A DNA stretch of 33,231 nt from Planctomycetota bacterium (GTDB taxonomy: Bacteria > Planctomycetota > Phycisphaerae > Sedimentisphaerales > Anaerobacaceae): positions 1 through 33,231 of the forward strand of contig JADFMM010000031.1 of assembly GCA_022563885.1 (NCBI GenBank), written 5' to 3'. The position numbers were made by a program, and so were the translations under genes. A model generated the notes under the pieces. It made no database searches, was not told where the DNA came from, and was given only the letters and a program-made list of their open reading frames with translations. Shown here piece after piece: positions 1,960 to 33,231 of the stretch (position 1 is the stretch's first letter; every line of letters begins with the position of its first letter).

Positions 1960-1969
1960 GACAACTTTC

Positions 1970-2653: not shown

Positions 2654-2699
2654 AAGCAAGGTCTCCTTCGTGCTCTCTAGCGCCTACTGATTACTGAAG

Positions 2700-5564: not shown

Positions 5565-5600
5565 GGCATCTTTCCTATAGAAGATCACAGTTGGGGCTTG

Positions 5601-5678: not shown

Positions 5679-5682
5679 AAAC

Positions 5683-7935: not shown

Positions 7936-7947
7936 AGTGCTATGACC

Positions 7948-11003: not shown

Positions 11004-11077
11004 CGGCGTCTCTCAATCCGACCTGGCCTGAAACAACTATAATTCAAACGTCTCGATCTAACCCGGCGAGACAGAGC

Positions 11078-14007: not shown

Positions 14008-17240
<3,233 letters not shown>

Positions 17241-17421
17241 CCGAAGGCGCCCTTGCGGACTATCCCGTCACGGGGAACGTCCGAATCCAGCAACTCAACG
17301 GGGTTCTCGTAGCTATTCTGATTCATACTGGGGCTGTTGTTCAATACCGATCCCCTAGCGCGGCCTTCGGGCGGACCAAAAAGTTCAGGGGTCACATAGA
17401 GGCCTTTGGCCGGAATCAAAC
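17241..17421. other. Convergent intergenic region
   Basis: 181 bp between the ends of the PSD1 gene and the glycosidase remnant. No convincing terminator: only short GC arms (CCCGT/ACGGG) near 17264. A minus-strand frame (ELFGPPEGRARG, then NSPSMNQNSYENPVELLD) continues past the remnant's stop in another phase, but I recognise nothing in it. Confidence 0.4.
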
Positions 17422-18795
17422 CTATTCTTTTCGCGAGATAATACGCCCTTCCTCGGTTATCAGCAGTTGCAACTCCTTGCCGTCGACAGAGCCTTTGATT
17501 TGGTATACCAGCGGTCCCCATTCGTATGAGTGAACCTTGTACCAGGGCTTGCACTTCACCAGATCCCAGTTGTCCTGTCCGGTGACTTCAGCGAACTCGA
17601 CGGCATACACTCCGCATTTGCTGTTTTTTTCGTACTTTCCGAGTTCATCCAGAGGTTTATCCCGCAGGTCCTTCCATTTCTTGGCATAGCCCAGGGTATC
17701 GATCTGTCCGCCTTTGGCCACCATCGGCTCGTCGCGGTAATACCCCTTCAGCGGCATGATAAAGCGGCTAGGATCGGTTTTGAATATGGCCGGATAGAAG
17801 GCCTCGAACAGACGGTCCTTGTCTTTCTTGTCGATACCTTCGTTGAAAATTTCCCACATGACGATGCTGGGACTGTTGCGGACCTGCCTGATGTCTACCG
17901 TGAATTCCTCCACCGCTTGCTCCAGGGTCATTTTTGAACCATCCGGATTCTTGTTTATGCTGGTCCATTGCTTTCTCGCCCAGCCGGTGGATACCCACAT
18001 ATACATGACACCGAGCTGGTCCCCGATCTCGGCAAATCGCGGGTCGCTGTAGGCACCGGAGGCCTCGTGTTTTCTTATCGTATTTCCCTCCATCGCCCGG
18101 ATCATCAGGATCCCCTTTACAATCCACGGCGTTGGGCAACAGCGGTGCCAGGTTGTGGACTGGGTCAGCGGCGCGAGGAACTGCATCCACGTCGCACCAT
18201 TGAGGACTTCTTCCTTGCCGTTGATGCGGAATGTGCCGCCTTCTTCGCTGATGGTGCGGATGCCGGTGGTCACCACATGGTCATCCTGTGGTTTTCCGGA
18301 CTTGCTGACAAGTGTGACAGTGACCTTGTACAGGTTCGGATGCTCGTAATCCCAGAGCAGCGGTTCGGGAACCGAAACGCTTTTCGAAATCGTCGTGCCC
18401 TTCGTGGCATCGAGTTGGAAAGCAACACGATCTTCGACAGAAGCCATTGAGGATGCCGAAGGGATACCACGGGAAGAAGTGGATGACAGCCTCTCCGTCA
18501 AATGCCGCCGCGCCTTTATTGGTCACCTCCACCGTAACTTTTACGGTGGCAGGATCGCCGAGTTTTTCCGTGGTGACAAAAACGTCGTCTACATGAATCG
18601 TGCTTGTCAGATCCAGTGACATGCGTCCGGCGAACCAGCCGTAGTACAGGTCCTGCGATGTGTGACCATCGGCCGTGTAGAATCCGGCGGGAACGTGATC
18701 TACTTTTCCTCGGCAGTCACCGTACCCCCGAGTGCCAGGAACGTGATTCCCATTGTGCAAAAAACAACAAAAACATGAATCCTGAGATTCAGCAT
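17422..18795 (-). pseudogene. Decayed glycoside hydrolase family 2 gene
   Basis: The remnant starts with ATG at 18795 and a good signal peptide (VFVVFCTMGITFLALGG) but hits TAG at 18700 after 31 codons. The next frame then gives GFYTADGHTSQDLYYGWFAG and a GH2 Ig-like domain (VTVEVTNKGAAAFDGEAVIH), so most of the N-terminal sugar-binding domain (well over 100 residues) is missing. Around 18430-18480 the reading frame shifts back to VEDRVAFQLDATKG... and runs to 17422. This part holds the GH2 landmarks FRINGKEEVLNGA, MRAMEGNTIRKH, the acid/base motif MWEIFNEG and the nucleophile-region VEFAEVTGQDNW. After HSYEWG (about 17515) the expected C-terminal domains are absent and a PepSY-like tail follows. 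At least three lesions make function very unlikely. Confidence 0.85.
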
Positions 18796-18929
18796 GCCGA
18801 TCCTTTGCACAGGAAGGATTGAAGAGCACGAAGGGCTGCCGCCAATCTGCAACTACCATCTGCTGCAATAGGATCGCTGGCATCGGCGTCAGCCCTTCCC
18901 TATCTTCTTTTCTTCCCGTACAATTATCC

Positions 18930-18987
18930 TTTGAGCGAAGCTCAAATAATGGAAATTCTATTCTCCCGTGAACGCCTATCAGGCGTT
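18930..18987. other. Two small hairpins downstream of the DUF1080 gene
   Basis: Perfect arms TTTGAGC/GCTCAAA with a 3-nt loop (18930-18946), and AACGCC/GGCGTT with a 5-nt loop (18971-18987), lie 21-78 bp after the DUF1080 stop. Neither has a T run on the minus strand, so they may be weak terminators or 3'-end stabilisers. The rest of the 212-bp gap shows nothing. Confidence 0.4.
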
Positions 18988-19007
18988 GTCACAGTTGCGG
19001 AGTCCTC

Positions 19008-19736
19008 TCAGTCGATGAGAGGGGCGCTCGTTTCGGGAGTTGTGATACCGGGCGGCAGTTCCATGATGTGGATATTGCGAAAGTGGATTTCCGCACCTTC
19101 CGATTCCAGGCAGAGATACCCTTTCTTGACGCTCGCTTGGCGGACGCCGTTGACGAATTTCCCGTTCACCGACAGTTTAACCACGCCATCGACGGCCACG
19201 ACGTCATAGGTGTTCCATTGTCCCTTGCCCAGACAGCGGTTTTCGATGGATTTGCTGCGTCGCCCACGTGGATTATCCGGTGTTGTCTGTAAGCCGTTGG
19301 CGCCGAAAAGTTCTCCGTGGACATAGGCAATGGGGCGCAACGATCCATCGGCACGCGCATGGAGTTTGACCCAATCGAGTTCCAGCATTTGAACCTCGAG
19401 CCCCTTGGGCAGGCGTCTACCTGCCGGGACGGTGCCTTCGCTCCAGATAAACACACCGGAATTCCCCCCGGCTTCCATGTGTCTCCACTCGATGTGCAGG
19501 ACAAAATTCTCATACTGTTTTGCTGAGCGCATCACCCCGGTGGGATGTCCGCTGCAGACCAGCAGACCGTCTCTGACCGTCCAGGTGTCCGGGGCGGTGT
19601 TGACCGGCATCCAACCGGACAGATCCCTGCCGTTGAACAGTGGGCGAAATCGGGGCAGATCTTCGTGTTGTGCCCGCCCGATGCTCCCGCAGGAGACAAA
19701 CGCGATCAAGGTCAGAACAGAGGTGTATCGCTGCAT
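19008..19736 (-). CDS. Secreted DUF1080 protein (3-keto-disaccharide hydrolase family)
   Basis: 242 residues; ATG at 19736 with AAGGA 9-10 nt upstream. A signal peptide (about 1-22) precedes a single DUF1080 domain with the family landmarks [73 protein letters not shown] and [17 protein letters not shown]. The fold is a concanavalin-type beta sandwich. Some members hydrolyse 3-keto-glycosides made by Gfo/Idh/MocA oxidoreductases; three such oxidoreductases lie 6 kb away. Action outside the cytoplasm is expected. It is divergent from the propeller gene and next to the glycosidase remnant. Domain call is firm, activity inferred. Confidence 0.93.
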
Positions 19737-20271
19737 GGTCTTCTTTCCTTTCTATTGCGAAGAAAGCTGAACGGTGTCTGTTCATGTGCACGATGCCGAT
19801 CCCTAAAACAAAAACCTTCTCATCATGATTGATCAACACATGGCCAATCACTGCACAATAAAATGTATTGGCGACCTCGTACAGTGAAAAATAAGACTCC
19901 TTCAGTGCTTTATAAGATGTGGATGGCTCTTGTTGAAAATGTGAAAAAATTTGTCGAATTGTCCTAGGCAAATGCCTATGTCGATCTGGTTTTTCGGCCT
20001 GGTTCATTTCCGGGTCACATTTCCGATCGTTGTCGTTGTCGTGATCGTAATCGTAATCGAAACAGTGAATTGGGGCAATTAAGAGTGTCGATTACGACAA
20101 CGACAACCGCTGCGCTGACAACGACAACGAAGATAGCTACGCAGGGTGATACCTATTCGGGAGTGATAGTGAACCAGGCCGTTTTTTTCCTTGAATCGCT
20201 ATATTCCCGGTGGTACATTCAATCGATATTACAAACTAAGCTACGCCACAAACCAATAAGGACTCCGAGCT
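19737..20271. other. Divergent intergenic region, DUF1080 / propeller gene
   Basis: 535 bp with no recognisable gene. It must hold the promoters of both flanking genes, but no clear -35/-10 pair is seen. It contains a small hairpin TAGGC/GCCTA near 19965 and the low-complexity inverted repeat at 20025-20130. The propeller start has AAGGA about 11 nt upstream. Confidence 0.5.
20025..20130. repeat. Low-complexity inverted repeat (GTTGTC/GACAAC units)
   Basis: Left arm TCGTTGTCGTTGTC (20027-20040) is the exact reverse complement of 20117-20130. Inside, CGTAATCG units (20045-20059) can pair with CGATTACG (20089-20096), and another GACAACGACAACC-type run lies at 20096-20108. The whole could fold into a roughly 105-nt imperfect stem-loop in the leader region of the propeller gene. 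Confidence 0.7.
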
Positions 20272-23200
20272 ATGACATATGACTTGAACAGGACCATTGG
20301 AATCTGTTTGCTCTTGGCTGCCTGGATTTCTGTTTCTTTTGCTGAAAGCAAAACGGAAGACAGCCCTCCGGCTGAGGAAGACGTGCCCGCGGTGGCCTAT
20401 GAAAGAGCGTCGACTTGGGCAGAAACTGTCCGAGCGAACCGTAACGCTCTCTTTGAATACAAGACTTCTTTCATTTTCTCGGCAGTTGATGTCACTCCGG
20501 ATACCAATGCCATTCCCATCGATGTGGAGATCAGCGATAGACAGTATCTCTGGCTCATTTCGAATCATCGGGGCCAGGCCGTGTGGTGCTCTCCTCAATT
20601 GGTGAGGGAGGATGGAACCACCATTTCCTTAACCACCTTGGAGCCGTTTTCTCAAGAGATCGGTCGGGGGGAACTCAAAGTAGACACGGCAGTGGTGGCC
20701 GGTCAAAACTTTCCCGAGAGTTTATTGGCTCCCGCCGCCAGCAGAATTGGATACCGACTGGATGGCCAGTATAAGCGCTTCAAGACCGGAGTAGGCCTCA
20801 ATGAGTCATCTCGAAATGGCAAGGTTGATTTTTATGTTTGTACGGCGCCGGTTTTTGAACTTTTGGATGAATCCGCAGAAAAACTCTTCGCCGGTATTGA
20901 TGCTGATTTTCCTGACCATGCCCGGGGTCTCCTGGTGAACGGCATAGAGGGTGAACGTTGCGAGTTCCTGTATCATGAAGATCCTTTGGCATTGCTTAGC
21001 AAGGCAACCGGGAATGCCTTGGATCAAGTGAAAGCCTATGGAATTCCCTATCGTGATAGGGCTGAGAATTTGGACGGCCAGGGAACAGTTGAACAGTGGC
21101 TGGAATTGCTCGGTCACGTTCTGGAATTACAGACTAGCCTGTTTCACGTTCGAGATCAGATCAAGCAGGTGGTTCCGGTGTTGAGCCGATTTACCCGTGA
21201 TTTCAGCCTGGAACTCACGTTGCTGAGTGATCGTGCCCAATACCTGGAAACCCATATGGACTCGCAGGTCCTGGGGACATTCAAACCGGTTTCGGAAATA
21301 AAGCAAATCGAGAACGAGCTGGCGACGGTTGAGTCCCATCGGCTGAGCGGTCACGCCCTACCTGTAGAGGGGCTCAAGACATTAGGAGATCAGGCCAACG
21401 CACTGGCCGAACGGTTGGATCGGTTTATCGGATGGCCTGCCGTCCGGAGAGACAACCATCGTAGCGGCATTTCCTATGAACACCTGCAGTTCCCCTTACA
21501 ACGTCACTGGGTCCACACCCCTAATTTGGAGCCGAAGCCCGCGTGGCCACCTCCGGCAAGGGTGAACCGGGCGGTTCAAAGTGGCCCACTTGATCCGACG
21601 CTGACCTATGATCGCGCGTTCCACACAGTTGTTCACGATGGCTTGGTCTACTACGGCTCCTCGGCAGATGATTCGGTTCACTGTCTGGAATTGACTACCG
21701 GGAAAGAAATCTGGACCTATACGACCAATGGCCCTGTTCGCCTCGCGCCTGCCCTCTATGCGGGAAAATGCTATGTTGGATCAGATGATGGATATCTCTA
21801 CTGCCTCAATGGCAAGACAGGCGCGTTGTTATGGAAATTCCGGGCGGGGCCCGAGACCCCGTGGGTACCGGGGAACGGCAGGATCATCTCCTCTTTTCCC
21901 GTGCGTTGCGGGATCTGCGTGAGTGAGGACATCGTCTACTTTGCGGCGGGATTATTCCCTCAACAGGGCACATTCCTGTGTGCGTTGAATGCCGAAAGCG
22001 GTGAAGAGATTTTTGTGGAGCCTCTGACGTGTTCGCCTCAGGGGTACATGCTCCTCACTCCCACTAAAATCATGGTCTCTACCGGCCGCACGCCATTTGT
22101 GATGTGCGACCGAAAAACCGGTAAGCTCCTAGAGCAACTGGGAACGAGTAAATCCTGGGGTCAAGATCTGAAAGGTGGGTCATTTGCGGTTGTCATTGAA
22201 GACCGGGTTGCCACCGGGCCCAGTGAAGATGGACACCTCCATCTGTTTAATTCCGAACGGATAAAGTCGGTTTTCCGGAGTGTCGGTCAGCAGGTTTTAG
22301 TCTGTGGCTCGACCGCCTACATTTTGAGAAAGGACGGTTTGTTTGCCATCGACCGTCGAAAATACCTGCTCGAAAAGAAGGAAAGCCTTAAATGGCGCGT
22401 GCATGGTAAGCAATCGCACTGCATGATCATGGCGGGTGATACGGTTTTCTGTGGTGCAGAGGGCGGAGTGTATGCCATTCATGCCATCACCGGCGCTCGA
22501 CTCTGGACCACGGCTGTTGAGGGCAGAGTGGAAGGATTGGCGGTCAGTCTTGGCCGCCTATTGGTCAATACATCAACCGGCAAAACCTATTGCTTTTCCG
22601 GGCTACCTCCCTCTCACACGGTTGCAGACGACACCCGGCCCGAATCCAAAATTGCGGTTGATTCCGCAACGAAACAACTGGCCCGCGACCTCGTTTCGCT
22701 GGCCAAGGTTAAGAAAGGATATCTTCTCCTGCAGAATTATGGAGATGTCCGGCTTGCCGCTCAATTAGCCCTTATCAGTGACTTCCGGATCGTCTGTGCA
22801 GAGACCGATAGGGAAAAGATCGACAGGATGCGCACCCAGCTTCTGGCGGCCGGTCTTTACGGTCGGCAAATCGTCTGTCACCATTGGCCCACCGGGGTGT
22901 CACCTTACCAACGATATCTCTTCAATGCCATAATGATCAATGTCGAGAACGGCACTGCCCTCTCTGAGACACAGTACCAGTCCATTCAACGGCAACTGCG
23001 GCCCCACGGTGGATTCCTGGCCATCTTTGGCCAGAATAGAAACCCGCTTCCACCCTTTGCAGACCCATCCGAGTGGTTCCCAGGTGAGACCCGGGGAACC
23101 CGGTTTGTGTATCAGTACCGTGGCGCCTTAAAAGGTGAAGGGACATGGACTCATCCGTATGCCGATGCGGGAAACAGTGCCTGTAGTAACGACCAGTTTT

Positions 23201-24489
23201 CCTTTTCCAATTCTACCATCCAGTGGTTCGGCGCACCCGGTCCACGCAATATTGTGGACCGTCACCAGAAGAGCCCTCCCCCTGTCTATGCCAAGGGCCG
23301 GGTGTTTGTGACCGGTTCCGATTATATTGTCGCAGTTGATGCCTACAACGGCACCATCCTATGGGAGAACAAGCTAGCTGAATCGGGACGCGTTCGGATA
23401 ATGGGCAACTGTGGAAATATGGTGGCCATGGATGACCGCCTTTATGTGGCTCACAGCGGATTCTGCACGGCATTTGATGCTCAGACGGGCCAGCAGGTCT
23501 TTCAAACCAGTACGGAACAACTCAATACCGAATGGGGTTACCTCGCCCATGTCAATGGTGTTCTCCTGGGTAGCAGCGGACGGAGTGGATCCATGAACAG
23601 ACCTATTCTTCGTCGTTGGCCGGACATGAAACTTCAAGAAGGGGGCTTTTCCTGCAGCTATGAACTGTTTGCCTGCGATCCCAACACCGGTAAACGGCTG
23701 TGGCGTTACCGTCCACAGCATGGGGCCATCATCAACCCGGCCATCGCCTGTTCCGGAAATCGTGTGTGTTTCCTGGAAAGCCTGAACCCAACGACCCTGA
23801 ATACCGAGATCGGCCGCACGGATTTGAAGACACTCCTTGAAAAAGGCGTCCGAATTGTCGCCTTGGATATCAGCACTGGACAGCAGGCATGGGAGGCAAA
23901 ACCGGATATCCAGAATATCCAGCATATCGTGTATCTAAGTGCCACCCAGGACACGGTCATCGTTACGGGAAGCTGTCATATAGAGGTTGAAAATGCGATT
24001 AAGAATCGATATTCCATGATTGCCTACGACTCGGGAACCGGTCACCAACGGTGGGCTAGCCTTGATGTTCCCGGATACGAAGACGCTACCGATGGGAACC
24101 ACGGTGCGTTGCGTCAGCATCCCGTTATTGTCGGTGACATCGTCTATGGGAACGGCTATGCCCGATATGTGCAGACAGGTCAGGAGTACGCCGGTTGGAA
24201 ATGGACAAAGAGTCATAAGTGCACCACGCTCTCTGCCTCTGCGCGATGCGCCTTCAGCAGGTATGAAGATACGAAGCTGCCCTTTATGTTCGATCTGGAA
24301 ACCGGATTGCGCCAACCGCTCACCACCGTTTCCCGTCCGGGGTGCTGGATTAACATGTTACCGGTGGGTGGTCTGGTCGTTATCCCGGAAGGGAGTGCAG
24401 GCTGTACCTGTGGCTATTCTATTCAGACGTCCCTGGCACTCTCTCCTGAGCCAGCAATAGCTCAAGGAACTTCTCCACTGGGAGAATAG
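20272..24489 (+). CDS. Giant exported protein: NPCBM-like, two PQQ-like propellers, Rossmann/methyltransferase-like insert
   Basis: 1405 residues with a signal peptide (about 1-24, ending VSFAES). Residues 30-200 look like an NPCBM carbohydrate-binding-like domain (IGYRLDGQYKRFKTGVGLNE, then GKVDFYV). Residues 265-385 are helical, possibly coiled coil. A first PQQ-like beta-propeller runs from about 430 to 780 (VHCLELTTGKEIWTY, YLYCLNGKTGALLWKFRAG, GVYAIHAITGARLWT). Residues 805-925 form a Rossmann-like domain resembling SAM methyltransferases (RIVCAETDREKIDRMRTQL, LRPHGGFLAIF), but the glycine loop is degenerate (LLQNYGDVRLA). A second propeller fills about 985-1400 (IVAVDAYNGTILWENKL, FACDPNTGKRLWRYRP). 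Such fused propellers are common in planctomycetes; function is unknown, presumably periplasmic binding. It stands alone, divergent from DUF1080. Confidence 0.88.
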   Translation: MTYDLNRTIGICLLLAAWISVSFAESKTEDSPPAEEDVPAVAYERASTWAETVRANRNALFEYKTSFIFSAVDVTPDTNAIPIDVEISDRQYLWLISNHRGQAVWCSPQLVREDGTTISLTTLEPFSQEIGRGELKVDTAVVAGQNFPESLLAPAASRIGYRLDGQYKRFKTGVGLNESSRNGKVDFYVCTAPVFELLDESAEKLFAGIDADFPDHARGLLVNGIEGERCEFLYHEDPLALLSKATGNALDQVKAYGIPYRDRAENLDGQGTVEQWLELLGHVLELQTSLFHVRDQIKQVVPVLSRFTRDFSLELTLLSDRAQYLETHMDSQVLGTFKPVSEIKQIENELATVESHRLSGHALPVEGLKTLGDQANALAERLDRFIGWPAVRRDNHRSGISYEHLQFPLQRHWVHTPNLEPKPAWPPPARVNRAVQSGPLDPTLTYDRAFHTVVHDGLVYYGSSADDSVHCLELTTGKEIWTYTTNGPVRLAPALYAGKCYVGSDDGYLYCLNGKTGALLWKFRAGPETPWVPGNGRIISSFPVRCGICVSEDIVYFAAGLFPQQGTFLCALNAESGEEIFVEPLTCSPQGYMLLTPTKIMVSTGRTPFVMCDRKTGKLLEQLGTSKSWGQDLKGGSFAVVIEDRVATGPSEDGHLHLFNSERIKSVFRSVGQQVLVCGSTAYILRKDGLFAIDRRKYLLEKKESLKWRVHGKQSHCMIMAGDTVFCGAEGGVYAIHAITGARLWTTAVEGRVEGLAVSLGRLLVNTSTGKTYCFSGLPPSHTVADDTRPESKIAVDSATKQLARDLVSLAKVKKGYLLLQNYGDVRLAAQLALISDFRIVCAETDREKIDRMRTQLLAAGLYGRQIVCHHWPTGVSPYQRYLFNAIMINVENGTALSETQYQSIQRQLRPHGGFLAIFGQNRNPLPPFADPSEWFPGETRGTRFVYQYRGALKGEGTWTHPYADAGNSACSNDQFSFSNSTIQWFGAPGPRNIVDRHQKSPPPVYAKGRVFVTGSDYIVAVDAYNGTILWENKLAESGRVRIMGNCGNMVAMDDRLYVAHSGFCTAFDAQTGQQVFQTSTEQLNTEWGYLAHVNGVLLGSSGRSGSMNRPILRRWPDMKLQEGGFSCSYELFACDPNTGKRLWRYRPQHGAIINPAIACSGNRVCFLESLNPTTLNTEIGRTDLKTLLEKGVRIVALDISTGQQAWEAKPDIQNIQHIVYLSATQDTVIVTGSCHIEVENAIKNRYSMIAYDSGTGHQRWASLDVPGYEDATDGNHGALRQHPVIVGDIVYGNGYARYVQTGQEYAGWKWTKSHKCTTLSASARCAFSRYEDTKLPFMFDLETGLRQPLTTVSRPGCWINMLPVGGLVVIPEGSAGCTCGYSIQTSLALSPEPAIAQGTSPLGE

Positions 24490-24732
24490 AATAAACGATA
24501 CACTGAACGATAGCCCCCGCCATAAACGTAGATGCCGCGCGTGCGGAGGCAGCAGTTTCCCTCCATCAAAACCTTGCGTCCGCCCCGAAGCACGGTGCCG
24601 GCCTGCGAATCTTTCATGGTGTGGTAGCGGATAATGTTATCGGGTGCTCTGTTGTGAGCAGACGCAAATCCTCTTTCGCATAGACCCAATAGCGATCGTG
24701 CGTCCAAGAGAAGTCTGGAGGGATCCTATCGA
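24490..24732. other. Convergent gap with possible unrecognised coding remnant
   Basis: 243 bp between the ends of the propeller and DUF6807 genes. On the minus strand two frames give protein-like pieces, RIPPDFSWTHDRYWVYAKED (24669-24730) and, in another phase, YHTMKDSQAGTVLRGGRKVL followed by RGIYVYGGGYRSVYR (to 24490). Together they could be the frameshifted end of a lost gene. I recognise no family. No terminator is evident. Confidence 0.3.
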
Positions 24733-25698
24733 CTACCCATCAAGCCACTGCTCATACACTCGGTCCAGGGCTGCCTCTTGCGGATCGCCGGCGTGAAGTG
24801 CGACTCTGTATCTCAGTCTAAGGGTCTGTCCTTTCTCCAGACGCCAGGGCTGCTTCTGGAAATTCAGCGGCGACGGCGACAAGTGCCCATACTCCCGCGT
24901 AAACCAGATGGGAGGCCAGGGGTTGTCCGGATGCGTCATCACGGCGATGCCCTCAACCAGGTCACCGTGGTTTCTCCGTTTGCCGTGATAGCCGCACCAT
25001 TTGGCCTGCTTACCGTATGTGCCATCAGCGCCGACGCCACCCTCGGAGTTCATCAGCACCCCGCCATAAGAGGGTGATATATCCGAAGCCGCACGAATCG
25101 CGAAGAACGAATGTTTGGCTTTTTTGACCTCAACATCCTCGACCGCGGTCAGCTTGAAATCGCAGTCGATGCACCACAATCGTTCACTCGCCACTGTCAC
25201 GATGAATCTGCGCTCGTCGCGCATCGGCGAACCGGTCTCCTTGCTGATCCACTGGCACTCATCAAGTATCTCCGCCGAGGTCTTCGTCACCTCGCCGAGT
25301 CCCAGACCAACCGACTGTATCTGGCCCCTCTCCAGCGAGTTGTCGGCCCAGTAGTCTCCCCCGTTCATGGGCTCACACCCAAGCCACAGTCCGCGGTGAT
25401 GCGGATAAGGCAGAGCGGACTCACTCGTCAGCGACATCCCCGACACAGGCCCGTTGACCGGACCAAAATAGGGATATTTCAGACTCTTATGCGCTCTATA
25501 GCTCGTTAGCGGCATATTGTTGAGCCGCACCAGCACATTGGCCCCATTGCGATACGCCGTCAGTCCCTCAGCCTCAGGCACGGGCTGGGCGTAATCAATC
25601 GCCCCAGCCTTCTCGCTCAGCAATGATCCGGCAGCAAGGCCAAACACCGCCGCCGAGCCACACCGCAAAAACTCACGCCTACCCAAATCGTTACCCAT
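24733..25698 (-). CDS. TAT-exported DUF6807 (PmoA-like) protein
   Basis: 321 residues from the ATG at 25698, which has AGGAG 8 nt upstream; a longer frame to 25785 lacks a site and would bury the signal. The N-terminus GNDLGRREFLRCGSAAVFGL is a twin-arginine signal. The body matches the DUF6807 family often annotated as 'methane oxygenase PmoA', though it is unrelated to methane oxidation: LTSYRAHKSLKYPYFGPVNG, LPYPHHRGLWLG, DYWADNSLERGQI, HSFFAIRAASDISP, EGIAVMTHPDNPWPPIWFTR. The HHRG histidines are typical of the family. These genes commonly accompany Gfo/Idh/MocA dehydrogenases in planctomycetes, as here (132 bp after one). A beta-sandwich carbohydrate-active role is guessed; no reaction is known to me. 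Confidence 0.88.
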   Translation of the reverse strand: MGNDLGRREFLRCGSAAVFGLAAGSLLSEKAGAIDYAQPVPEAEGLTAYRNGANVLVRLNNMPLTSYRAHKSLKYPYFGPVNGPVSGMSLTSESALPYPHHRGLWLGCEPMNGGDYWADNSLERGQIQSVGLGLGEVTKTSAEILDECQWISKETGSPMRDERRFIVTVASERLWCIDCDFKLTAVEDVEVKKAKHSFFAIRAASDISPSYGGVLMNSEGGVGADGTYGKQAKWCGYHGKRRNHGDLVEGIAVMTHPDNPWPPIWFTREYGHLSPSPLNFQKQPWRLEKGQTLRLRYRVALHAGDPQEAALDRVYEQWLDG

Positions 25699-25830
25699 AA
25701 CAATGTCTCCTGAAACTGCGATGTTCTCAAGCATCACGGCGTAACAACTCGCCGTGCCAGTCAATATTAATGGAAAGGTCGGCAAAGTAAATAGGCGGAT
25801 TCAACTCTCAAATGCAACAAATGAGTGACT

Positions 25831-26949
25831 TCAACGCTGGTTTTCTATTTCAGATAGATCGACCCACGCACCCCGCCTTGCAGCGCATGCAGCGCTATCG
25901 GTAAAGATTTGTACTCGATAGCCATCGTCGAGCCCCGGGTGCTCTGAATGGCCGCCCGCGATACGCTCACGTAGCGCCGGGAATACATATTGACTGAAGC
26001 GGTTACCCAGCCCCTTGTCCGGTAAGGTTGCCACGGTTTCCGGCTTAGCACCCCTGCGGAAAACCCGTAGTGCGCCGGTGATGCGATCGAGAGACAACGA
26101 TGCATCTGTGCCGTGAAGTTCTAACTCGGGCGCGATGCCTTTGCGAAGAAAAGCTGCATGAGAGAGCACGATGGTGCCCAAGATGCCGCTTCGCATTTGT
26201 ACTGCGATTGAGGCGTAGTCATACGCGGTGCCTTTACGGATTTGCTTGGCCTCGCTTGATTTGTGTTGACCGCCCCAATAGAGCGCTTCCCTTAAATCGA
26301 TATTACCGAGGTCAGGCTTTGGCGGCGTGATGATGTCCGCGTGTACCAAGACACGTTGCGCTTCATCCTCTAGAATCCATCGTAGGGTATCGTAGACATG
26401 CGAGCCAACATCGCCGATGCTGCCACCGGCAGAGACTTCGCCATCGTCGCGCCAAGTGAAAGGCATCGATGCTGGCCGAGGGTTGTACCAGCGGTAAGTG
26501 AATGCTCGAATCTCGCCTAACGCGCCAGCCTGAACCACTTCACGGGTGCGACGAAAAATACCGACGTACCGCGTCCAAAAAGGAACAAAATGGCCGAGTT
26601 TACTGCTACGGTAGACGTTCCACATCTGCCATGCTTCTTTGGCATTCACACCCACAGGTTTCTCACAAAGTACACTCACGCCCTGCGCAGCGCAGGCCAT
26701 GACCGCTTTTTGATGGATGGCGTCAGGAGTACACACCAATACCAGGTTCACACCGGGGTGCGTGATGACCTTCTGCCAATCATCGCTGAAGAACTCTGCG
26801 CCATCTTCTTTGGCGGCAGCCTCAAGGTTGTTGAGCCGGCGTGCACATAACGACACAATGGTGGCGTCGTCCTTGCATGCTCGAATTTCTTTTCGATACG
26901 GGGAACCGATGTAACCGGTTGCCCCTAGAACCGCAATTTTAAATTTCAT
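25831..26949 (-). CDS. Gfo/Idh/MocA family oxidoreductase (canonical motifs)
   Basis: 372 residues, no signal peptide. An N-terminal NAD(P)-binding Rossmann fold has VLGATGYIG (7-15) and the family EKP motif CEKPVG (95-100, catalytic-type Lys97). The C-terminal domain has GGSIGDVGSHVYD (175-187) with the D-x-G-x-H arrangement (Asp180, His184) typical of sugar dehydrogenases. The start is 8 bp after the stop of the preceding oxidoreductase gene; ribosome site weak. Family members oxidise or reduce a sugar hydroxyl, often at C3, with NAD(P). It is the one of the three paralogues here with complete catalytic motifs. Substrate unknown. Confidence 0.92.
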   Translation of the reverse strand: MKFKIAVLGATGYIGSPYRKEIRACKDDATIVSLCARRLNNLEAAAKEDGAEFFSDDWQKVITHPGVNLVLVCTPDAIHQKAVMACAAQGVSVLCEKPVGVNAKEAWQMWNVYRSSKLGHFVPFWTRYVGIFRRTREVVQAGALGEIRAFTYRWYNPRPASMPFTWRDDGEVSAGGSIGDVGSHVYDTLRWILEDEAQRVLVHADIITPPKPDLGNIDLREALYWGGQHKSSEAKQIRKGTAYDYASIAVQMRSGILGTIVLSHAAFLRKGIAPELELHGTDASLSLDRITGALRVFRRGAKPETVATLPDKGLGNRFSQYVFPALRERIAGGHSEHPGLDDGYRVQIFTDSAACAARRGAWVDLSEIENQR

Positions 26950-26957
26950 GATTTATT

Positions 26958-28061
26958 TTATCCAACATCAACAACCAAACCCGTCCGACCCGATTCCAAG
27001 GCGGCTGTTACAATCGCGGTAATGGCGCGGCTCTTTTCTGCATCGAGAATACTTGGGCGATCCGTGTCAATGGCGCGGGCAAAGTCGTCGGCTAGCAGAT
27101 AATCGTTATCCGCTGCAAGCAAGCGGTGATTCTTAAACTCGTCTTCGGGCTGATTGCGGTAGTAGATGCCTACTTCGGGTCGCGCTTCGCTTACCACCAG
27201 CGCACCTTTAGCACCTAGAACGTGTAACTTGATTTCACCGATGTCCGGGTGACTCGCGGCACCGATGCGGCCAATGCAGAGGCTACCGACGAGGTCGTTT
27301 TCGAATTCCAGTGTCACTGTTGCCAGATCTTCTACATCGTTATCTTGGTAGAGTTGGTGAAAGTGTGCAGCGGTACGGGCGAAAACGCGGATCACCTTAT
27401 GATTGGTTAGCATGGCCATGTAGGCCAGCGGATAGCACCCTTCTATGCCCAGCTCGCCCATGGGCTCCACGCCAAGTCCACCATCTGCGCCGGTTGCGTG
27501 GGCGGCCTTGAGCGTTTCCAGCCAGTCCATCGGTGGATCATTCGTCCTGCGCGATCCAATAGGCGGCCCGGCATCTTTGGCAAAGTAGAAGTCGACGTGA
27601 AAGGCATAAGGATCACCCACATCACCGCGATCGATCGCGCCCTTGGCCTCAACGACAGCCGGCAGAAGGTTGCGATTCCACATGAGAAATTTAACGCTGT
27701 TTCTGGCCACAGCATCGACGACGCGGTCGCATTCCGATAAGGTGTTGGACATTGGTTTATCTTGAATGACATGGAGTCCGGCTTCGGCGGCTCGCACAGA
27801 CAGGTCGCAATGACGTTCCGCTTCACTAGAAACCACTGCCACCTGAACGTCGTGTTCGCCGATGGCTTGCGCCACATTGCGAACGTAAGGAATGCCATGA
27901 TCAAGGGCAAACCGTTCGTTGCGTTCGTGAACCCAATCAGGCCGATCCGCATCGTCTGCCACAACGGCAAGTTCGAAACGGGGGTGTGCCCCCACTCCGC
28001 TGGCGACATAGCCATGCTTGACCACACTCAGAACAACAACGCGATAAGTTGTTTTAGACAT
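26958..28061 (-). CDS. Gfo/Idh/MocA family oxidoreductase, variant active site
   Basis: 367 residues from the ATG at 28061, which overlaps the upstream gene's stop by 8 bp; an extension further upstream lies inside that gene and is rejected. The nucleotide-binding loop is unusual: VVVLSVVKHGYVASG instead of a GxGxxG run. The EKP motif appears as QDKPMS (100-105), keeping the Lys. The catalytic segment reads GELGIEGCYPLAY (202-214), with Tyr where most members have His, as in the glucose-fructose oxidoreductase type. Middle of the oxidoreductase trio, so likely acts in the same pathway on a different step or position. Cofactor mode is uncertain. Confidence 0.88.
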   Translation of the reverse strand: MSKTTYRVVVLSVVKHGYVASGVGAHPRFELAVVADDADRPDWVHERNERFALDHGIPYVRNVAQAIGEHDVQVAVVSSEAERHCDLSVRAAEAGLHVIQDKPMSNTLSECDRVVDAVARNSVKFLMWNRNLLPAVVEAKGAIDRGDVGDPYAFHVDFYFAKDAGPPIGSRRTNDPPMDWLETLKAAHATGADGGLGVEPMGELGIEGCYPLAYMAMLTNHKVIRVFARTAAHFHQLYQDNDVEDLATVTLEFENDLVGSLCIGRIGAASHPDIGEIKLHVLGAKGALVVSEARPEVGIYYRNQPEDEFKNHRLLAADNDYLLADDFARAIDTDRPSILDAEKSRAITAIVTAALESGRTGLVVDVG

Positions 28062-29037
28062 AAACTCCACATTGTTCGTGTATGACTTGCTTCGCATGCA
28101 GCGACCGTCCAATCGCTTCGATGACTCGATGCACTGCCAGGCAATCTTTGCTGCCCACTGGGGGTTCAGTTTTCCCCTTGATCGCATCGACAAAACCTTG
28201 AAGCTCAAGGGCAAGGTGACCGTAGCCTTGATCGCTGATCAAGGCCGCAGGGTCACCACCCTTGAAGAGCAGATGGGTATTGTGATGATCATCGGCATAG
28301 GCTGCGCCGGTTGATCCGATGAGAGACAGGGAATCGTAACCTTTGCCTTCAGGGTGAGCGGCACAAAAATCAAGCAGCGCCATAGCCCCCGATGGAAAAC
28401 CAAAGTGAACCTGAATGTAGTCAGGCGTTGTGCCGGTACCACCGCCACCGCGTGCGAGAGCATAAACTTCAGTCGGCCTGGCGTTGAATAGCCACAATGC
28501 CAAATCTACGTCCGCAAAGAGTGTGTGGGCCAGGTGGGGCCGCTTATCATGATGAATGCTGCGCCAACGGTGGACACGCAAAAGGCTTGGATGGCCAAGT
28601 TTGCCCATCGTAAGACGGTCTTTGATCACTCGAATACTCGGAGTGAAGCGCAATGTTTCTCTGACAGCAAAACACACGCCCTGCTGTTCTGCCGCATCGA
28701 TCATCGCTTCAGCTTCTGCAAGAGTACCCGAAACTGGCGCATCGACCATCATGTGTTTTTGCGCGCGCCCGGCGAGTTGAGCCAGTTCTGGTCTCATTGA
28801 TAGCGATGTGCTCAGTATAACAGCGTCGAACTCTTCGCTGTGCCTATTAAGCGCAGCCTCAAGTGAATCCACAACGACTGAAGCACCGATTGCGTCAGCC
28901 ACGGATCTACCGAGCGTCGAGTCATGGTCTGCAACGACGGTAAAGCAAGCATCCCGTAAGCGCATGGCAATGCCGCGCCAGAGGGCGACATTGCCCGGGC
29001 AGCCAATCACTGCCAAACGAATGGACGAACGACTCAC
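28054..29037 (-). CDS. Gfo/Idh/MocA-like protein lacking the EKP lysine
   Basis: 327 residues starting with GTG at 29037, two bases after the symporter stop. The Rossmann loop is IGCPGN (11-16). In place of EKP stands VDAPVSG (98-104), so the usual catalytic Lys is missing. The region matching D-x-G-x-H reads HTLFADVDLALWLF (171-184), keeping an Asp but not the His in place. It is shorter than typical members (about 340-390). It may be a divergent enzyme or a non-catalytic partner. It is translationally coupled to the next oxidoreductase (8-bp overlap). Confidence 0.8.
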   Translation of the reverse strand: MSRSSIRLAVIGCPGNVALWRGIAMRLRDACFTVVADHDSTLGRSVADAIGASVVVDSLEAALNRHSEEFDAVILSTSLSMRPELAQLAGRAQKHMMVDAPVSGTLAEAEAMIDAAEQQGVCFAVRETLRFTPSIRVIKDRLTMGKLGHPSLLRVHRWRSIHHDKRPHLAHTLFADVDLALWLFNARPTEVYALARGGGGTGTTPDYIQVHFGFPSGAMALLDFCAAHPEGKGYDSLSLIGSTGAAYADDHHNTHLLFKGGDPAALISDQGYGHLALELQGFVDAIKGKTEPPVGSKDCLAVHRVIEAIGRSLHAKQVIHEQCGVYV

Positions 29038-29039
29038 GA

Positions 29040-30566
29040 TTAACGTTCAACCTTTTTAAGCGTACCCAATGTCAGGCCCTCTATTGCCCGCCCTGGTGTG
29101 GAAAAACAAAGGCTGGCGAAGTATCCGACCATGACGCAAGATAGAACGCCCACTGCCGCCGTGAGAATACCGTGTAAGGGGGCATTCTCCATACTTTTTA
29201 TGACGATCAGCGTTATCACGGAGGCGGCCACGCCGATTGCTACGCCGCACGTGTTGGCGCGCTTGGTAAACACCCCTAAAAGAAAAACACCAGCCAGAGA
29301 ACTACCAAAGAGGGACATGAACAATAGAATCAAATCCCACAGGGATTTTGCATCTTGTCTTGAGACTAAATACGCAGATAGCGTGCCGATAACGCCGGCA
29401 GTCACCGTGATTCCGCGCGCCATTTTTAGGCGTGTCTTGTCGTCCGCGTCGGGTCGTAACTTGCTATAAACATCTGTTACCAGTGATGTGGCAATGCTGT
29501 GCATACCGCTGTCCACGGTGGACATGGTGGCGGCAAAAACGCCGGCGATCACCAGACCCGCAAGTCCTACCGGCAACTGCGTTGCGATAAACCATGGCAC
29601 AATTATGTCGTTCTGGCTACTGGGCGGAAGCATCTCGGGTCGAGAGTGATAAAAAATGAAAAGCGCCGTACCTAGGCCGAAGAAAAGTAGCGAAGAGGGA
29701 ACAACAATGGCCGCGTGGGCCCAGACGGCTCGGGCTGCGGATCGCTCTGTGGGTGTGGTCAAAAGACGCTGCATGGGCACCTGATCACTGGTGAAAGGAA
29801 CCACCTGTATAAAAAAACCACCGATGATCCACACCCAGAAAACGTCCGATTTTAAACCGCCCGCCATCGTGAAGATATGAAACTTGTTTTCACGGACGGC
29901 GAGATCCCACATGCCCTTGAAATTGAACTCCTCCGCAGCTAGTATAAGCCCAATACACAACAGCCCGCCGCCAGCGAGAACGATAGACTGCAACACGTCG
30001 GTCCAGACGACTGCCTCGATACCGCCGAGCACCGTATAAACTGTACACAGTAATCCCATCACGGTGATACAGAGATAAATATTGATACCCGTTACCGTCG
30101 AGAGCGCCAGGGAGGGCAGAAGAAGAAAGATGCCCATCTTGGCGATTTGAAGGATGGTAAAGGAGATGCTACCGTACAAACGCATCCCGGGACCAAAACG
30201 CCTTTCCAGGTACTCATAGATGGAAGTGACGTTGAGCCGCCGATAGAAAGGCAAAAAGCAGTACACTGTCAGGGGCGCCACAAGAATAATGCCAAGATTG
30301 ACAAGAATAGACAGCCAGTCGTACCCAAAAGCTTTTGCAGGGATGGCCATAAAGGTCACGGCGCTGAGCTGAGTACTAAACATACTCAGCGTCGCCGCCC
30401 ACCAGGGGATACGGCGACCCGCCAAAAAGTAGTCATCAGTACTGGTGTTGCGCTTTGCGAAATAAAACCCCATGTATACCAGGATGAGGAGGTAGCTCAC
30501 CAGAACCAGATAGTCTAGCATGTGAAAGGGAGACTGCGTGAGTTCGGCTGTACCTAGGACGTGCAT
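29040..30566 (-). CDS. Sodium/solute symporter, SSS family
   Basis: 508 residues with about 13 hydrophobic segments, starting YLVLVSYLLILVYMGFYFAK. The family signature begins TSTDDYFLAGRRIPWWAATLSMFSTQLSAVTF. Further landmarks are IYEYLERRFGPGMR, YTVLGGIEAVVWTDVLQ, VPMQRLLTTPTERSA and AGVFAATMSTVDSGMHSIATSLVTDVY. It imports a sugar, sugar acid or similar solute with Na+. Start is 8 bp after the aldolase stop; an alternative ATG 15 codons in (30521) is possible, and neither has a strong ribosome site. The neighbours suggest its substrate feeds the aldolase and dehydrogenases. Confidence 0.93.
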   Translation of the reverse strand: MHVLGTAELTQSPFHMLDYLVLVSYLLILVYMGFYFAKRNTSTDDYFLAGRRIPWWAATLSMFSTQLSAVTFMAIPAKAFGYDWLSILVNLGIILVAPLTVYCFLPFYRRLNVTSIYEYLERRFGPGMRLYGSISFTILQIAKMGIFLLLPSLALSTVTGINIYLCITVMGLLCTVYTVLGGIEAVVWTDVLQSIVLAGGGLLCIGLILAAEEFNFKGMWDLAVRENKFHIFTMAGGLKSDVFWVWIIGGFFIQVVPFTSDQVPMQRLLTTPTERSAARAVWAHAAIVVPSSLLFFGLGTALFIFYHSRPEMLPPSSQNDIIVPWFIATQLPVGLAGLVIAGVFAATMSTVDSGMHSIATSLVTDVYSKLRPDADDKTRLKMARGITVTAGVIGTLSAYLVSRQDAKSLWDLILLFMSLFGSSLAGVFLLGVFTKRANTCGVAIGVAASVITLIVIKSMENAPLHGILTAAVGVLSCVMVGYFASLCFSTPGRAIEGLTLGTLKKVER

Positions 30567-30574
30567 GACGATAA

Positions 30575-31390
30575 TTATATCATTTCGACTCTATGTCCGC
30601 CCTGTTCCAGTTTATCACCAAGCGCAGCGCGTGCTTCCTTTAAGTCTTTTTCCAGTGCCTTGGTAAATAGTAAGACGTCCGCACTGTGCAGGAATAGTGT
30701 GGCACCGCATTTGGCCCACTCAATCTCTTGTTCCAGACTATTCCAAAAATGAATCCCTACTCCTATGTTGTGTGCTCGCGCTTTTTTGATAATCACGCGG
30801 ACCATTTTGTCGAATTCAGGATGATCGTATTGTTCGGGAATCCCCATGCTGACGGACAAGTCATGCGGGCCTATTTGCACCGCATCGATGCCGGGCACTG
30901 CAAGAATCTGGTCCAGGTTTTCAACGGCAGGCACACTTTCAATATTGATAAAAAGAAGTCGCCCTTCGCTTCCCTCGCGAAGATAGGATGCCAAAGGTTC
31001 AACAGGTTCAGCGGTGCCCTCTAAGGCGTCTGCGAGTTTTTTCCCTTTGAGTGGCCGCAGTTTTACGGCGCCTCGCAAGGCCTGAACCTCGGCAAGTGTT
31101 TCGACATAAGGGGCAATAATGCCGCAGGCGCCGCCATCGAGTACCTTGCAGGCGCGATACGGGTCCGGCGCTGGGATGCGCACAATCGGAGCCAAGTTCA
31201 GCGCGCGACAGGTCTGACACATCCAGGCAAGATCATGGTCGCTAATCGGAATGTGTTCGGTGTCAATAAAAACATAATCAAGCCCGATCCCCGTCAGGTG
31301 CTGCGGTAGATGCGGCGATGGGGAAGTGATTAAAGTTCCGTAGACACGCTGACCCGCCCTTAGGGCCCTAGATAGCTCAAGACCATTCAC
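30575..31390 (-). CDS. HpcH/HpaI family aldolase
   Basis: 271 residues; GTG start at 31390 with AAGGAG 10 nt upstream. It follows the metal-dependent pyruvate (class II) aldolase pattern: YVFIDTEHIPIS with His46, IVRIPAPDP with Arg71, metal ligands Glu151 in NIESVPAVEN and Asp177 in QIGPHDLSVSMG. Length is normal. The family cleaves 2-keto-3-deoxy sugar acids or related 4-hydroxy-2-keto acids to pyruvate and an aldehyde. As first gene of the operon it points to a pathway ending in a 2-keto-3-deoxy acid. No matching dehydratase is in the window. An insert around 115-140 (GKKLADALEGTAEPVEPLAS) is typical of the subgroup. Confidence 0.92.
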   Translation of the reverse strand: MNGLELSRALRAGQRVYGTLITSPSPHLPQHLTGIGLDYVFIDTEHIPISDHDLAWMCQTCRALNLAPIVRIPAPDPYRACKVLDGGACGIIAPYVETLAEVQALRGAVKLRPLKGKKLADALEGTAEPVEPLASYLREGSEGRLLFINIESVPAVENLDQILAVPGIDAVQIGPHDLSVSMGIPEQYDHPEFDKMVRVIIKKARAHNIGVGIHFWNSLEQEIEWAKCGATLFLHSADVLLFTKALEKDLKEARAALGDKLEQGGHRVEMI

Positions 31391-31496
31391 AAACTCTACA
31401 CTCCTTCGCGACCGCGCAAAAATAACCTCCCATTCTGAAAAGCCAGTTACTTACCCACGGAGGATTAATTACACCTTACGGCTTCTTTCAGGTGCG

Positions 31497-31526
31497 AATT
31501 GCATTAGGCAATTGCATTTGCGCAAT
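31497..31526 (-). promoter_or_regulatory. Candidate operator: paired ATTGC/GCAAT palindromes
   Basis: Three half-sites form two overlapping palindromes: AATTGC-N5-GCAATT (31497-31513) and ATTGC-N6-GCAAT (31511-31526), sharing the central GCAATTGC. It lies 107-136 bp upstream of the aldolase GTG. A third weak palindrome GAATT-N7-AATTC follows at 31527-31543. No regulator gene is in the window, so the factor is unknown. The rest of 31391-31496 shows nothing else. Confidence 0.45.
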
Positions 31527-31553
31527 GAATTAAGATACAATTCAAGCGCTCTG

Positions 31554-32159
31554 GAGACTGTGCTAGGCTGCGTCGGAAAACTCGATCTGGCTTCGAGCGA
31601 CCCTTTTTCTTAGCCATCCAACGCTGCTATGGCAGCAAGGGCTGCACGAAGGCAACAGGATTGTCCGCCTGGCTGCATCCGGCTCCATCGACGATGCAAC
31701 CAATATCGCCTGCTTCGCCTCTTTGCCAGGCGAAAAACTTATTCGCTCTCGGGCCGACGAGCAGGTTTTCCGACAAAGCCTAACAGTACTGACATTTTCT
31801 GGCGAAGTAAAGTAGTCAGCAGCCACTCGCAAGAGTATACTGAGGCACTCATCATCAATTTCAGGAATCGATGGAGGCTGGGCGTTTGCCGTGGTGAAAA
31901 ATCTGGGTTTATGGCCGTTTTTAATACCGTAAAGACCGATTTTTGGCGCTAAGGAGTTGTGCAAAAATAAATCATTGGTTTTACGCTTAGATTTGCGTCA
32001 GATTCGTTCGTGACCGATTGAGCGAAACCGGAAGCGTAGCTGTTCTACGTTGAGGATTCGCGATTGAGGAACGGACGAAGGTGGCGTGAAGATGAGATGG
32101 AAAACCGGTGAGTTATTTTTGCACGACGACTAAGCAGCCTGTAACGTTAGCACAGTCTC
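31554..32159. mobile_element. Composite fold-back element / IS remnant
   Basis: The 12-bp GAGACTGTGCTA at 31554-31565 is repeated exactly, inverted, at 32148-32159; GGCTGC follows directly on the left and after an 8-bp insert on the right. Inside, ACTG..TAGGCT..GTCGGAAAAC at the left end (31558-31581) recurs inverted at 31765-31787, bounding a 230-bp fold-back unit. No transposase frame is recognisable; overlapping frames here are not protein-like. It seems to be layered remains of non-autonomous transposons. Confidence 0.6.
31959..32124. mobile_element. MITE-like fold-back element, about 166 bp
   Basis: Terminal inverted repeats begin GTGCAAAAATAA at both ends and stay similar for about 26 bp (GGTTTT shared further in). 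The interior is itself an imperfect inverted repeat (for example TCGTTCGTGACC.. against ..GGAACGGACGAA) closing on a central hairpin CGTAG-N5-CTACG near 32035. There is no coding potential and no clear target-site duplication. It lies inside the larger element, close to its right end. Confidence 0.7.
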
Positions 32160-32175
32160 TGAAAGGATTCTGTTT

Positions 32176-32189
32176 TTGTTTGTAAACAA
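32176..32189. promoter_or_regulatory. Small palindrome upstream of the CBM gene
   Basis: TTGTTT-GT-AAACAA lies 41 bp before the start codon of the secreted CBM protein and just outside the mobile remnants. It could be an operator. A ribosome site AAGGAGG (about 32216-32222) follows, 8 nt from the ATG. The TTGACA at 32207 is too close to the gene to serve as its -35 box. Confidence 0.3.
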
Positions 32190-32230
32190 GTCAAAATCTA
32201 ACCTTTTGACAAGAGAAGGAGGTCGTCATT

Positions 32231-33231
32231 ATGAATAAAAGAGTGTGTTGTTTTGTGGTATTTGCTCTGATGTCCGAATTGGTCGTATCATGTGTCTGGA
32301 GTCAGGAAAACCAAATCATCAACAGCGAGTTCGACGATGGTCTTAATGCTTGGGGATCCTATGGGGCTGCCGGTTTTACGATTGAAGTCGTGAGAGATGC
32401 AGGTCTCTCCGGAAAAAATGGGGCCCTGTTAGATGTGACGGACGCTTCCGCCGGTGGCGCAATAGGGCTTGCCCAGAGTGGTCTACTTCTTGAGCCGGGA
32501 GTCACCTATCCGATAGGCTTTACCGCCAGAGCGGAACAGGACAGAGAGATGGTGCTGCTACTCCAAACAAACCTGAACAGTGTGAGTTGGCCAACCCAAG
32601 TCAACCAGAAAATGAACCTTACGACTAAGCCGCAAGAATATTTTTTTGAATACACCCACAGCGGCAACACGTACGGAGATGAAGCGGGAGAAACCGTCAC
32701 GCTTTACCTGATGTTAAAAGGGGCCTTTTGGCCCATGGTGGGTGATGATCTGAACAAAAAAGTCTGGTTTGACCGCGTGTACTTTGGCGCTGAGCCCCCC
32801 CAGCCCCGCCGCGACCTTGCGGACGATCCCAATCCCGGCGATCAGAGCACGGACGTGCCCCGGATCACAGATCTTAGCTGGCAGCCGGGAATTCATGCTG
32901 ATACGCATGATGTATACTTGGGGGCCAACTTTGATGACGTCAATACTGCCGACCCTAGTAATCCCCTCGGCGTGTTGGTGAGCCAAGGCCAGGAAGCAAT
33001 GTCGTACGGACCGGAAAGCGTGTTTGATTTCGAGCAGATTTACTACTGGCGGGTCGACGAAGTCAATGGGGCCCCCGATTTTACGGTCTACAAGGGCGAT
33101 GTCTGGAGCTTCGAGGTAGAGCCCTTGTCAATTCCCATCCGCAATATCACGGCCACGGCCTCCAGCTCGTTCGGCATTTCCGGGCCTGAGAAGACCATCG
33201 ACGGCTCCGGTCTGGCGGATGATCTTCATGG
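32231..33231 (+). CDS. Secreted carbohydrate-binding protein, partial (C-terminus beyond window)
   Basis: The frame opens at ATG 32231 with a strong AAGGAGG and stays open to the edge (333 codons). A signal peptide (VCCFVVFALMSELVVSCVWS) ends near residue 25. Residues 28-185 look like a CBM4/9-type beta-sandwich (IINSEFDDGLNAWGSYG ... KVWFDRVYFG). Then comes the linker domain typical of Phycisphaerae secreted proteins: NPGDQSTDVPRITDLSW, HDVYLGANFDDV, IYYWRVDEVNG, GDVWSFEVEP. At the edge ITATASSSFGISGPEKTIDG begins a discoidin (F5/8 type C)-like domain. A catalytic or anchoring module may follow. Role: binding of extracellular polysaccharide, inferred. Confidence 0.87.
   Translation, partial: MNKRVCCFVVFALMSELVVSCVWSQENQIINSEFDDGLNAWGSYGAAGFTIEVVRDAGLSGKNGALLDVTDASAGGAIGLAQSGLLLEPGVTYPIGFTARAEQDREMVLLLQTNLNSVSWPTQVNQKMNLTTKPQEYFFEYTHSGNTYGDEAGETVTLYLMLKGAFWPMVGDDLNKKVWFDRVYFGAEPPQPRRDLADDPNPGDQSTDVPRITDLSWQPGIHADTHDVYLGANFDDVNTADPSNPLGVLVSQGQEAMSYGPESVFDFEQIYYWRVDEVNGAPDFTVYKGDVWSFEVEPLSIPIRNITATASSSFGISGPEKTIDGSGLADDLH

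Follow-up and report, generated by a model that had tools for sequence, protein, structure and literature searches.

The canonical sialic acid operon comprises nanA, nanE and nanK (PMC10570557, in the part accessible to us). Gfo-type proteins can ready an anhydro sialic acid for the lyase, and an EKP lysine together with a DxxxH motif is described for the class of NanOx and YjhC (both from the accessible part of PMC7535918). Here we analyzed an operon of a Planctomycetota bacterium (assembly GCA_022563885.1), located in a window of 33,231 bp that represents the whole of contig JADFMM010000031.1 in a genome of 6.5 Mb. On the minus strand, the operon encodes in this order an HpcH/HpaI aldolase, an SSS symporter and three Gfo/Idh/MocA proteins, referred to as gfo1, gfo2 and gfo3. 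We propose, with a probability of about 0.4, that it is a catabolic unit for a sialic-acid-type (ulosonic) acid or an anhydro, oxidized or otherwise modified derivative. The SiaT-like SSS protein would import the acidic sugar with Na+; gfo1 and gfo2, probably as a heteromer, and the dehydrogenase gfo3 would yield the open 2-keto-3-deoxy acid or an equivalent 4-hydroxy-2-keto acid; and the metal-dependent class II aldolase would cleave this acid to pyruvate and an aldehyde sugar. We infer the substrate, the order of steps and the heteromer, the first of these from the kinship of the SSS protein to SiaT and from the sialidase and NanM-SSS neighborhoods of the aldolase clade.

The five genes form one operon. 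The aldolase, SSS and gfo1 genes are separated by 8 bp and 2 bp, gfo1 and gfo2 overlap by 8 bp, and gfo3 follows after another 8 bp (Table 1). A DUF6807 gene lies 132 bp beyond gfo3. Pfam and the coordinates confirmed the genes, families and spacing named in a preliminary description of this DNA, and its proposal of a single operon is borne out by the layout. Note that gfo2 begins at the ATG at 28061, the listed open reading frame (ORF) start at 28214 being too early. In agreement with the same description, none of the five genes was recognized by Pfam as encoding a kinase, dehydratase or isomerase. NanA, NanE and NanK were likewise not found among them by Pfam; NanE and NanK were not searched for in the remaining genome. 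Scans for promoters (5 against 5.8 in shuffled sequences, standard deviation 2.3) and terminators (12 against 8.8, standard deviation 3.1) gave counts not clearly above the shuffles.

Table 1. Coordinates and domain matches of the operon genes and of the DUF6807 and DUF1080 genes in the window.
Feature	Position	Strand	Domain match
HpcH/HpaI class II pyruvate aldolase (predicted), 271 aa, first in operon	31390-30575	-	PF03328, 84.1 bits
SSS-family Na+/solute symporter, SiaT-related, 508 residues	30566-29040	-	PF00474, 163.5 bits
gfo1, degenerate Gfo/Idh/MocA protein, predicted gfo2 partner	29037-28054	-	PF01408 + PF22725
gfo2, highly conserved Gfo/Idh/MocA protein with atypical motifs	28061-26958	-	PF01408 + C-terminal domain
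gfo3, canonical Gfo/Idh/MocA oxidoreductase	26949-25831	-	PF01408 + C-terminal domain
DUF6807 protein with Tat-like leader, downstream neighbor	25698-24733 (from ATG)	-	PF14100, 172.7 bits
DUF1080 gene	19008-19736		PF06439

The first gene product scored well above the PF03328 cutoff of 25, placing it in the HpcH/HpaI family. Residues D43, E45, H46, R71, E151 and D177 were invariant in all 8 aligned members of its clade; in HpaI, we take the catalytic Asp/His/Arg and the metal-binding Glu/Asp to be D42, H45, R70, E149 and D175. An AlphaFold2 model of the aldolase (predicted local distance difference test score (pLDDT) 88.7) matched HpaI/HpcH best in a structure search (Z 26.6, root-mean-square deviation 3.5, 226 residues aligned). 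The fold is the (beta/alpha) barrel of the family. Fold and catalytic residues thus support the prediction of a metal-dependent class II pyruvate aldolase; the preliminary description had proposed an HpcH/HpaI aldolase that yields pyruvate. In a quick tree without bootstrap and with long branches, the protein fell into an aldolase clade of its own (56 rows versus seven HpcH/HpaI paralogues, SH-aLRT 100). Within this tree, 23 aldolases that we labeled by their gfo context were found inside a 33-row branch (98), apart from the aldolases of the window and of genomes G001 and G185.

The closest solved structure to the SSS protein is that of SiaT (PDB 5nv9; 323 bits, next match 188 bits), aligning with residues 14-489 of 508. 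SiaT substrate-site residues, taken from the accessible part of PMC5931594, served as the basis for comparison, and their numbers were mapped by reading the pairwise alignment; Ser60 and Thr63 are kept. Judged by its sequence, the symporter is related to SiaT but has a changed pocket, in which a basic residue remains available to a carboxylate. This kinship and the PF00474 match support the uptake function suggested earlier. In relatives an MFS protein takes the place of the SSS protein, and the transporter would thus be interchangeable, with MFS in many relatives and SSS in the window. The presence of an uptake-family transporter in the operon and in many relatives also argues against a synthetic role of the aldolase, in which it would supply the cell surface with a keto-deoxy acid or a modified sugar. 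Such a role is highly improbable, even though aldol reactions are reversible and an epimerase-family gene adjoins gfo2 in one gfo2 locus (L176); no sugar-activation gene was recognized, with several recurring clusters of neighboring genes being untyped.

The three Gfo/Idh/MocA proteins differ in their motifs. gfo3 carries GATGYIG, CEKP and DVGSH (D180-H184, corresponding to DxxxH), as in an active oxidoreductase (6 sequences). gfo2 is strongly conserved (27 sequences), with SxxKHxY for GxGxxG, E203xxxE207 for DxxxH, and DKP kept. Across 23 gfo1 sequences, no column is conserved ahead of residue 130 and the EKP lysine is missing, while conservation is retained in the C-terminal domain. Note that these alignments dropped gfo1 homologues below 30% identity, gfo2 and gfo3 homologues below 45%, and all proteins of 200 aa or less, and that start codons were chosen by script. 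By these motifs, gfo1 looks like a degenerate partner of gfo2, and the frequent pairing of the two suggests that they form a heteromer. The gfo1 homologue of genome G103 (L062:10347-11168) is a 273-aa ORF without a recognizable nucleotide-binding motif, in agreement with gfo1 as a degenerate partner. A single-sequence structure model of gfo2 reached a pLDDT of 35. Thus, Gfo-type chemistry as put forward in the preliminary description is retained, but three oxidation steps are unsafe to assume, since two of the three proteins have unusual active-site residues. A more far-reaching version of the pathway would have one heteromer subunit without nucleotide-binding function and the other with a remodeled site (SxxKHxY, DKP, ExxxE). 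Acting on a modified ulosonic acid, the two would catalyze a new type of step, redox-neutral or lyase-like, and pass the product to a class II sialic-acid-type aldolase that acts beside NanA rather than replacing it. We consider this version, an undescribed acidic-sugar pathway widespread in Planctomycetota, rather doubtful.

We next consider how far the gene set is conserved. Two samples were searched: a phylum draw of 392 genomes that includes the window's own (G000; E 1e-40 for gfo2, 1e-45 for the aldolase), and a class draw of 397 genomes, taken from the class to which genome G386 belongs (E 1e-60 for gfo2). In the phylum draw, gfo2 was found in 4 genomes and the aldolase in 6. In the class draw, the aldolase occurred in 43 genomes and gfo2 in 45, with both present in 31 against 4.9 expected (Fisher p = 1.2e-25, to be taken as a guide only, given the non-independence of the genomes). 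In distant Planctomycetota, the aldolase gene again has gfo1 and gfo2 as neighbors. This recurrence and the excess co-occurrence indicate a grouping above chance.

Neighboring genes were typed with Pfam for part of the loci and otherwise by tblastn with reference proteins (E 1e-8, in one search 1e-10), so that 'near' may mean several kb. gfo2 adjoins the aldolase in 23 of 53 aldolase loci, all 23 being among the 41 loci of the class draw (L121-L161). The remaining loci in this count are L065, L066, L083-L086 and L020-L025, of which L025 is a borderline clade member (42% identity); the window, the contigs of G001 and G185, and the distant L026 and L027 are excluded from it. Of the 23 loci with adjoining gfo2 and aldolase, 21 contained gfo1, which stood next to gfo2 in 20 of them, and 15 contained an MFS gene. 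Another 20 gfo2 loci included 19 with gfo1 directly adjacent and 8 with gfo3 in the vicinity; gfo3 homologues were also near gfo2 in L062, L064, L134 and L090. The window's operon is likely present in genus g162, where it was not seen whole: in G185 the aldolase (74%) and the gfo2-gfo3 pair (69 and 66%) lie at two different contig ends, and in G376 the gfo2-gfo3 pair (75 and 66%) opens a contig. In G001, neither gfo1 (E 1e-20) nor gfo3 (E 1e-30) was matched, on a contig that ends within the SSS gene and so leaves their absence unproven. The complete order aldolase-SSS-gfo1-gfo2-gfo3 was not seen beyond the window. As a control, 12 neighborhoods of other HpcH/HpaI homologues contained no gfo1, gfo2 or this MFS gene; L201 had weak SSS and BNR matches and L193 a weak gfo3 match (28%). 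A keyword search of the accessible literature returned no account of an operon joining an HpcH/HpaI aldolase with Gfo/Idh/MocA genes, and none that connects the two with planctomycetes. Thus, homologous operons exist, but none was found with a known substrate, the case that would have spoken against the preliminary description.

The neighborhoods of the aldolase clade point to the nature of the substrate. Sialidase-like BNR genes are near the aldolase in 8 of the 53 loci, 6 detected by tblastn and those of L083 (32.1 bits against a cutoff of 31.4) and L085 by Pfam; in L161 the BNR genes lie at least 2.5 kb from the aldolase. Two of these BNR proteins have sialidases as their closest PDB relatives (390 and 202 bits). 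With 3 to 19 BNR_2 matches per genome in 12 genomes, chance alone should not often place one near the aldolase. Fusions of an SSS protein to a NanM-like mutarotase (NanM-SSS) were found in L065 and L021, in the latter with several genes between fusion and aldolase, and a GlcNAc 2-epimerase gene in L020. The earlier proposal of a glycoside or sugar acid substrate can therefore be narrowed, as both the SSS protein and the clade neighborhoods favor a sialic-acid-like acid over a generic glycoside. Elsewhere in the window's genome, a sialidase-like gene adjoins a NanA-like gene (contig C118, L204:12356-14763), and genes for a BNR protein, a NanM-SSS fusion and a GlcNAc-epimerase-like protein (24% identity) stand in a row (contig C321, L203:4595-9598). 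The genome thus appears to have a conventional sialic acid system already. The operon would then most likely serve a related but different acid, probably not plain N-acetylneuraminic acid (Neu5Ac). Two further observations concern these domains: L085 has beside the aldolase a single open frame that encodes a DHDPS domain and, after it, a BNR_2 domain (L085:6586-8595), perhaps a fusion, and L172, a gfo2 locus without aldolase, has a weak BNR match (25%).

Several findings weigh against a sialic-acid-type pathway. At the level of the individual proteins, the fold match of the aldolase to HpaI/HpcH is equaled by its matches to other proteins of this fold, among them the citrate synthase SbnG (Z 26.5), so that aldolases are not separated from SbnG by fold. 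Arg135 of SiaT, which forms the salt bridge with the carboxylate, corresponds to Lys143 in the window SSS protein (Lys also in G001), and Gln82 corresponds to Asn90; transport of Neu5Ac is therefore not assured. Three NanM-fused SSS proteins (L065, L021 and L203 of the window's own genome) retain Arg135, with Asn or His at the position of Gln82. The four MFS proteins tested gave their highest scores with TIGR00895, a model of aromatic acid/H+ symporters (111 to 133 bits against a cutoff of 418.55), and lower ones with the sialate model TIGR00891 (70 to 93 bits), all below cutoff. We consequently rejected the MFS gene as proof of sialate transport. No Gfo protein of the operon is especially close to NanOx or YjhC: gfo1 scored 29 bits to YjhC versus 43 for its best match, gfo3 32 bits to NanOx versus 93, and gfo2 had neither among the 33 matches listed.

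Distribution and context add to these points. Only G000 and G386 have both gfo2 and the aldolase in the phylum draw. In the class draw, 14 of 45 genomes with gfo2 lack the aldolase, 12 of 43 with the aldolase lack gfo2, and the two genes are not neighbors in 8 of the 31 genomes that have both. The window SSS protein has no relative in the 20 gfo2 loci or the 23 gfo2-aldolase loci, its association with gfo1-gfo2 being observed in the window only, and none of those 23 loci gave a sialidase-like match by tblastn. L065 also carries a NanA-like lyase, and DHDPS-family genes are near the aldolase in L022, L025 and L085. Given the NanA-like genes in L065 and in the window's genome, the aldolase need not be a Neu5Ac lyase, and the idea that it simply replaces NanA is weakened.

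Part of this evidence would fit another organic or sugar acid (aldonic, uronic, quinate-like or aromatic-derived) degraded via a 4-hydroxy-2-keto acid, the likeness to SiaT then being that of a general carboxylate transporter. The SSS substrate residues unlike those of SiaT and the TIGR00895 scores of the MFS proteins, though below cutoff, are in line with such a substrate. The same applies to the weak match of gfo1 to PmdC (34.5 bits) and to the closest NCBIfam models of the aldolase, namely HpaI, 2-keto-3-deoxy-L-rhamnonate and 2-dehydro-3-deoxyglucarate aldolases, all below cutoff. In contrast, Pfam found no dehydratase or ring-cleavage gene among the five operon genes, an MR_MLE enolase-superfamily gene appeared among typed neighbors in L148 and L164 only, and members of the aldolase clade lie near sialidases and NanM-SSS genes. 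We regard such an acid as a real possibility, short of even odds.

The genes downstream of the operon bear on a third explanation, in which C3 of a glycoside would be oxidized by the Gfo proteins and the product handled by those of the DUF1080 and DUF6807 families. A DUF1080 gene is indeed present, as the preliminary description had noted, and gfo1 and gfo3 weakly match a disaccharide 3-dehydrogenase model. However, scores with the BT_2159 model were 24.8 (gfo1) and 27.1 bits (gfo3) against a cutoff of 650, with none listed for gfo2, and gfo3 reached 15.2 bits with the BT_2158 model (cutoff 750), far below what would identify such a dehydrogenase. We do not count the DUF1080 gene as an operon member: it lies ~5 kb off, on the far side of an opposite-strand gene of 4.2 kb. 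In the 53 aldolase and 20 gfo2 loci, tblastn found neither DUF family near the core genes, except for a single weak DUF1080-like match in L144, ~7 kb away. In addition, 3-keto-glycoside routes are not known to us to involve an HpcH/HpaI aldolase. Overall, this explanation is decidedly unlikely.

The DUF6807 protein, counted as part of the pathway in the preliminary description, is probably not an operon member. We rejected it in view of the 132-bp gap, a Tat-like leader (RREFLRCGS, read by eye without a predictor), the multi-copy nature of the family (8 PF14100 matches in the window's genome) and its absence near the core. The expected conservation of DUF6807 beside HpcH/HpaI genes was not seen: it was near the aldolase in 0 of 53 loci and near gfo2 in 0 of 20 by an insensitive tblastn search with a single protein, which recovered 1 of 3 loci with a known DUF6807 gene (L068; L067 and L069 were missed). 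GC content at third codon positions is 0.69 in the DUF6807 gene versus 0.52 to 0.60 in the operon genes. In the accessible part of the literature, DUF6807 is mentioned once, as a family number only (PMC10971088).

As for the rest of the window, GC content drops from ~0.60 to ~0.53 near 17.5 kb and stays low through positions 17000-33231. This low GC may reflect a separate history of the right half; values of 0.53 to 0.59 also occur in seven further stretches of the genome. The opposite-strand gene (20272-24489) encodes a 1405-aa protein with Pfam matches to a PQQ/BamB-type beta-propeller and NPCBM. At positions 556-12208, the minus strand carries genes for a MoxR ATPase, DUF58, BatA/VWA and VWA-like proteins, an untyped protein, DUF4159 and a cytochrome c554-domain protein.

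If a sialic-acid-type acid is indeed the substrate, the operon would give free-living planctomycetes a route for sialic-acid-like sugars that runs through a class II aldolase. It would assign a function to genes whose core pair is shared by 31 of the 397 class-draw genomes, 23 of which have the two as neighbors, and a first testable role to a conserved pair of unusual Gfo/Idh/MocA proteins.

Compared with known systems, the locus falls outside the definition of the canonical operon of nanA, nanE and nanK. Its SSS protein resembles SiaT of Proteus mirabilis in the near-full-length match and in Ser60 and Thr63, but differs at Arg135 (Lys), Gln82 (Asn), Phe78 (Ser) and Thr58 (Gln). The aldolase shares fold (Z 25.1 to 26.6) and catalytic residues with HpaI/HpcH, GarL and YfaU. 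It differs from them in its low identity (24 to 27% in structural alignment), its separate clade, a P-x-KG motif after the catalytic Arg region, a GPHDL motif, and scores far under the NCBIfam cutoffs. The nearest parallel in logic is the use of 2,7-anhydro-Neu5Ac by NanXY (YjhBC) of E. coli and RgNanOx of Ruminococcus gnavus. In contrast to these systems, the window has three Gfo proteins, two of them atypical, HpcH/HpaI instead of NanA, and an SSS transporter. Only gfo3 shares the EKP lysine and DxxxH of NanOx and YjhC, gfo2 having DKP and ExxxE and gfo1 lacking the lysine. Sequence kinship not being close, the parallel is one of analogy: in each case an importer and a Gfo/Idh/MocA enzyme would feed a pyruvate lyase.

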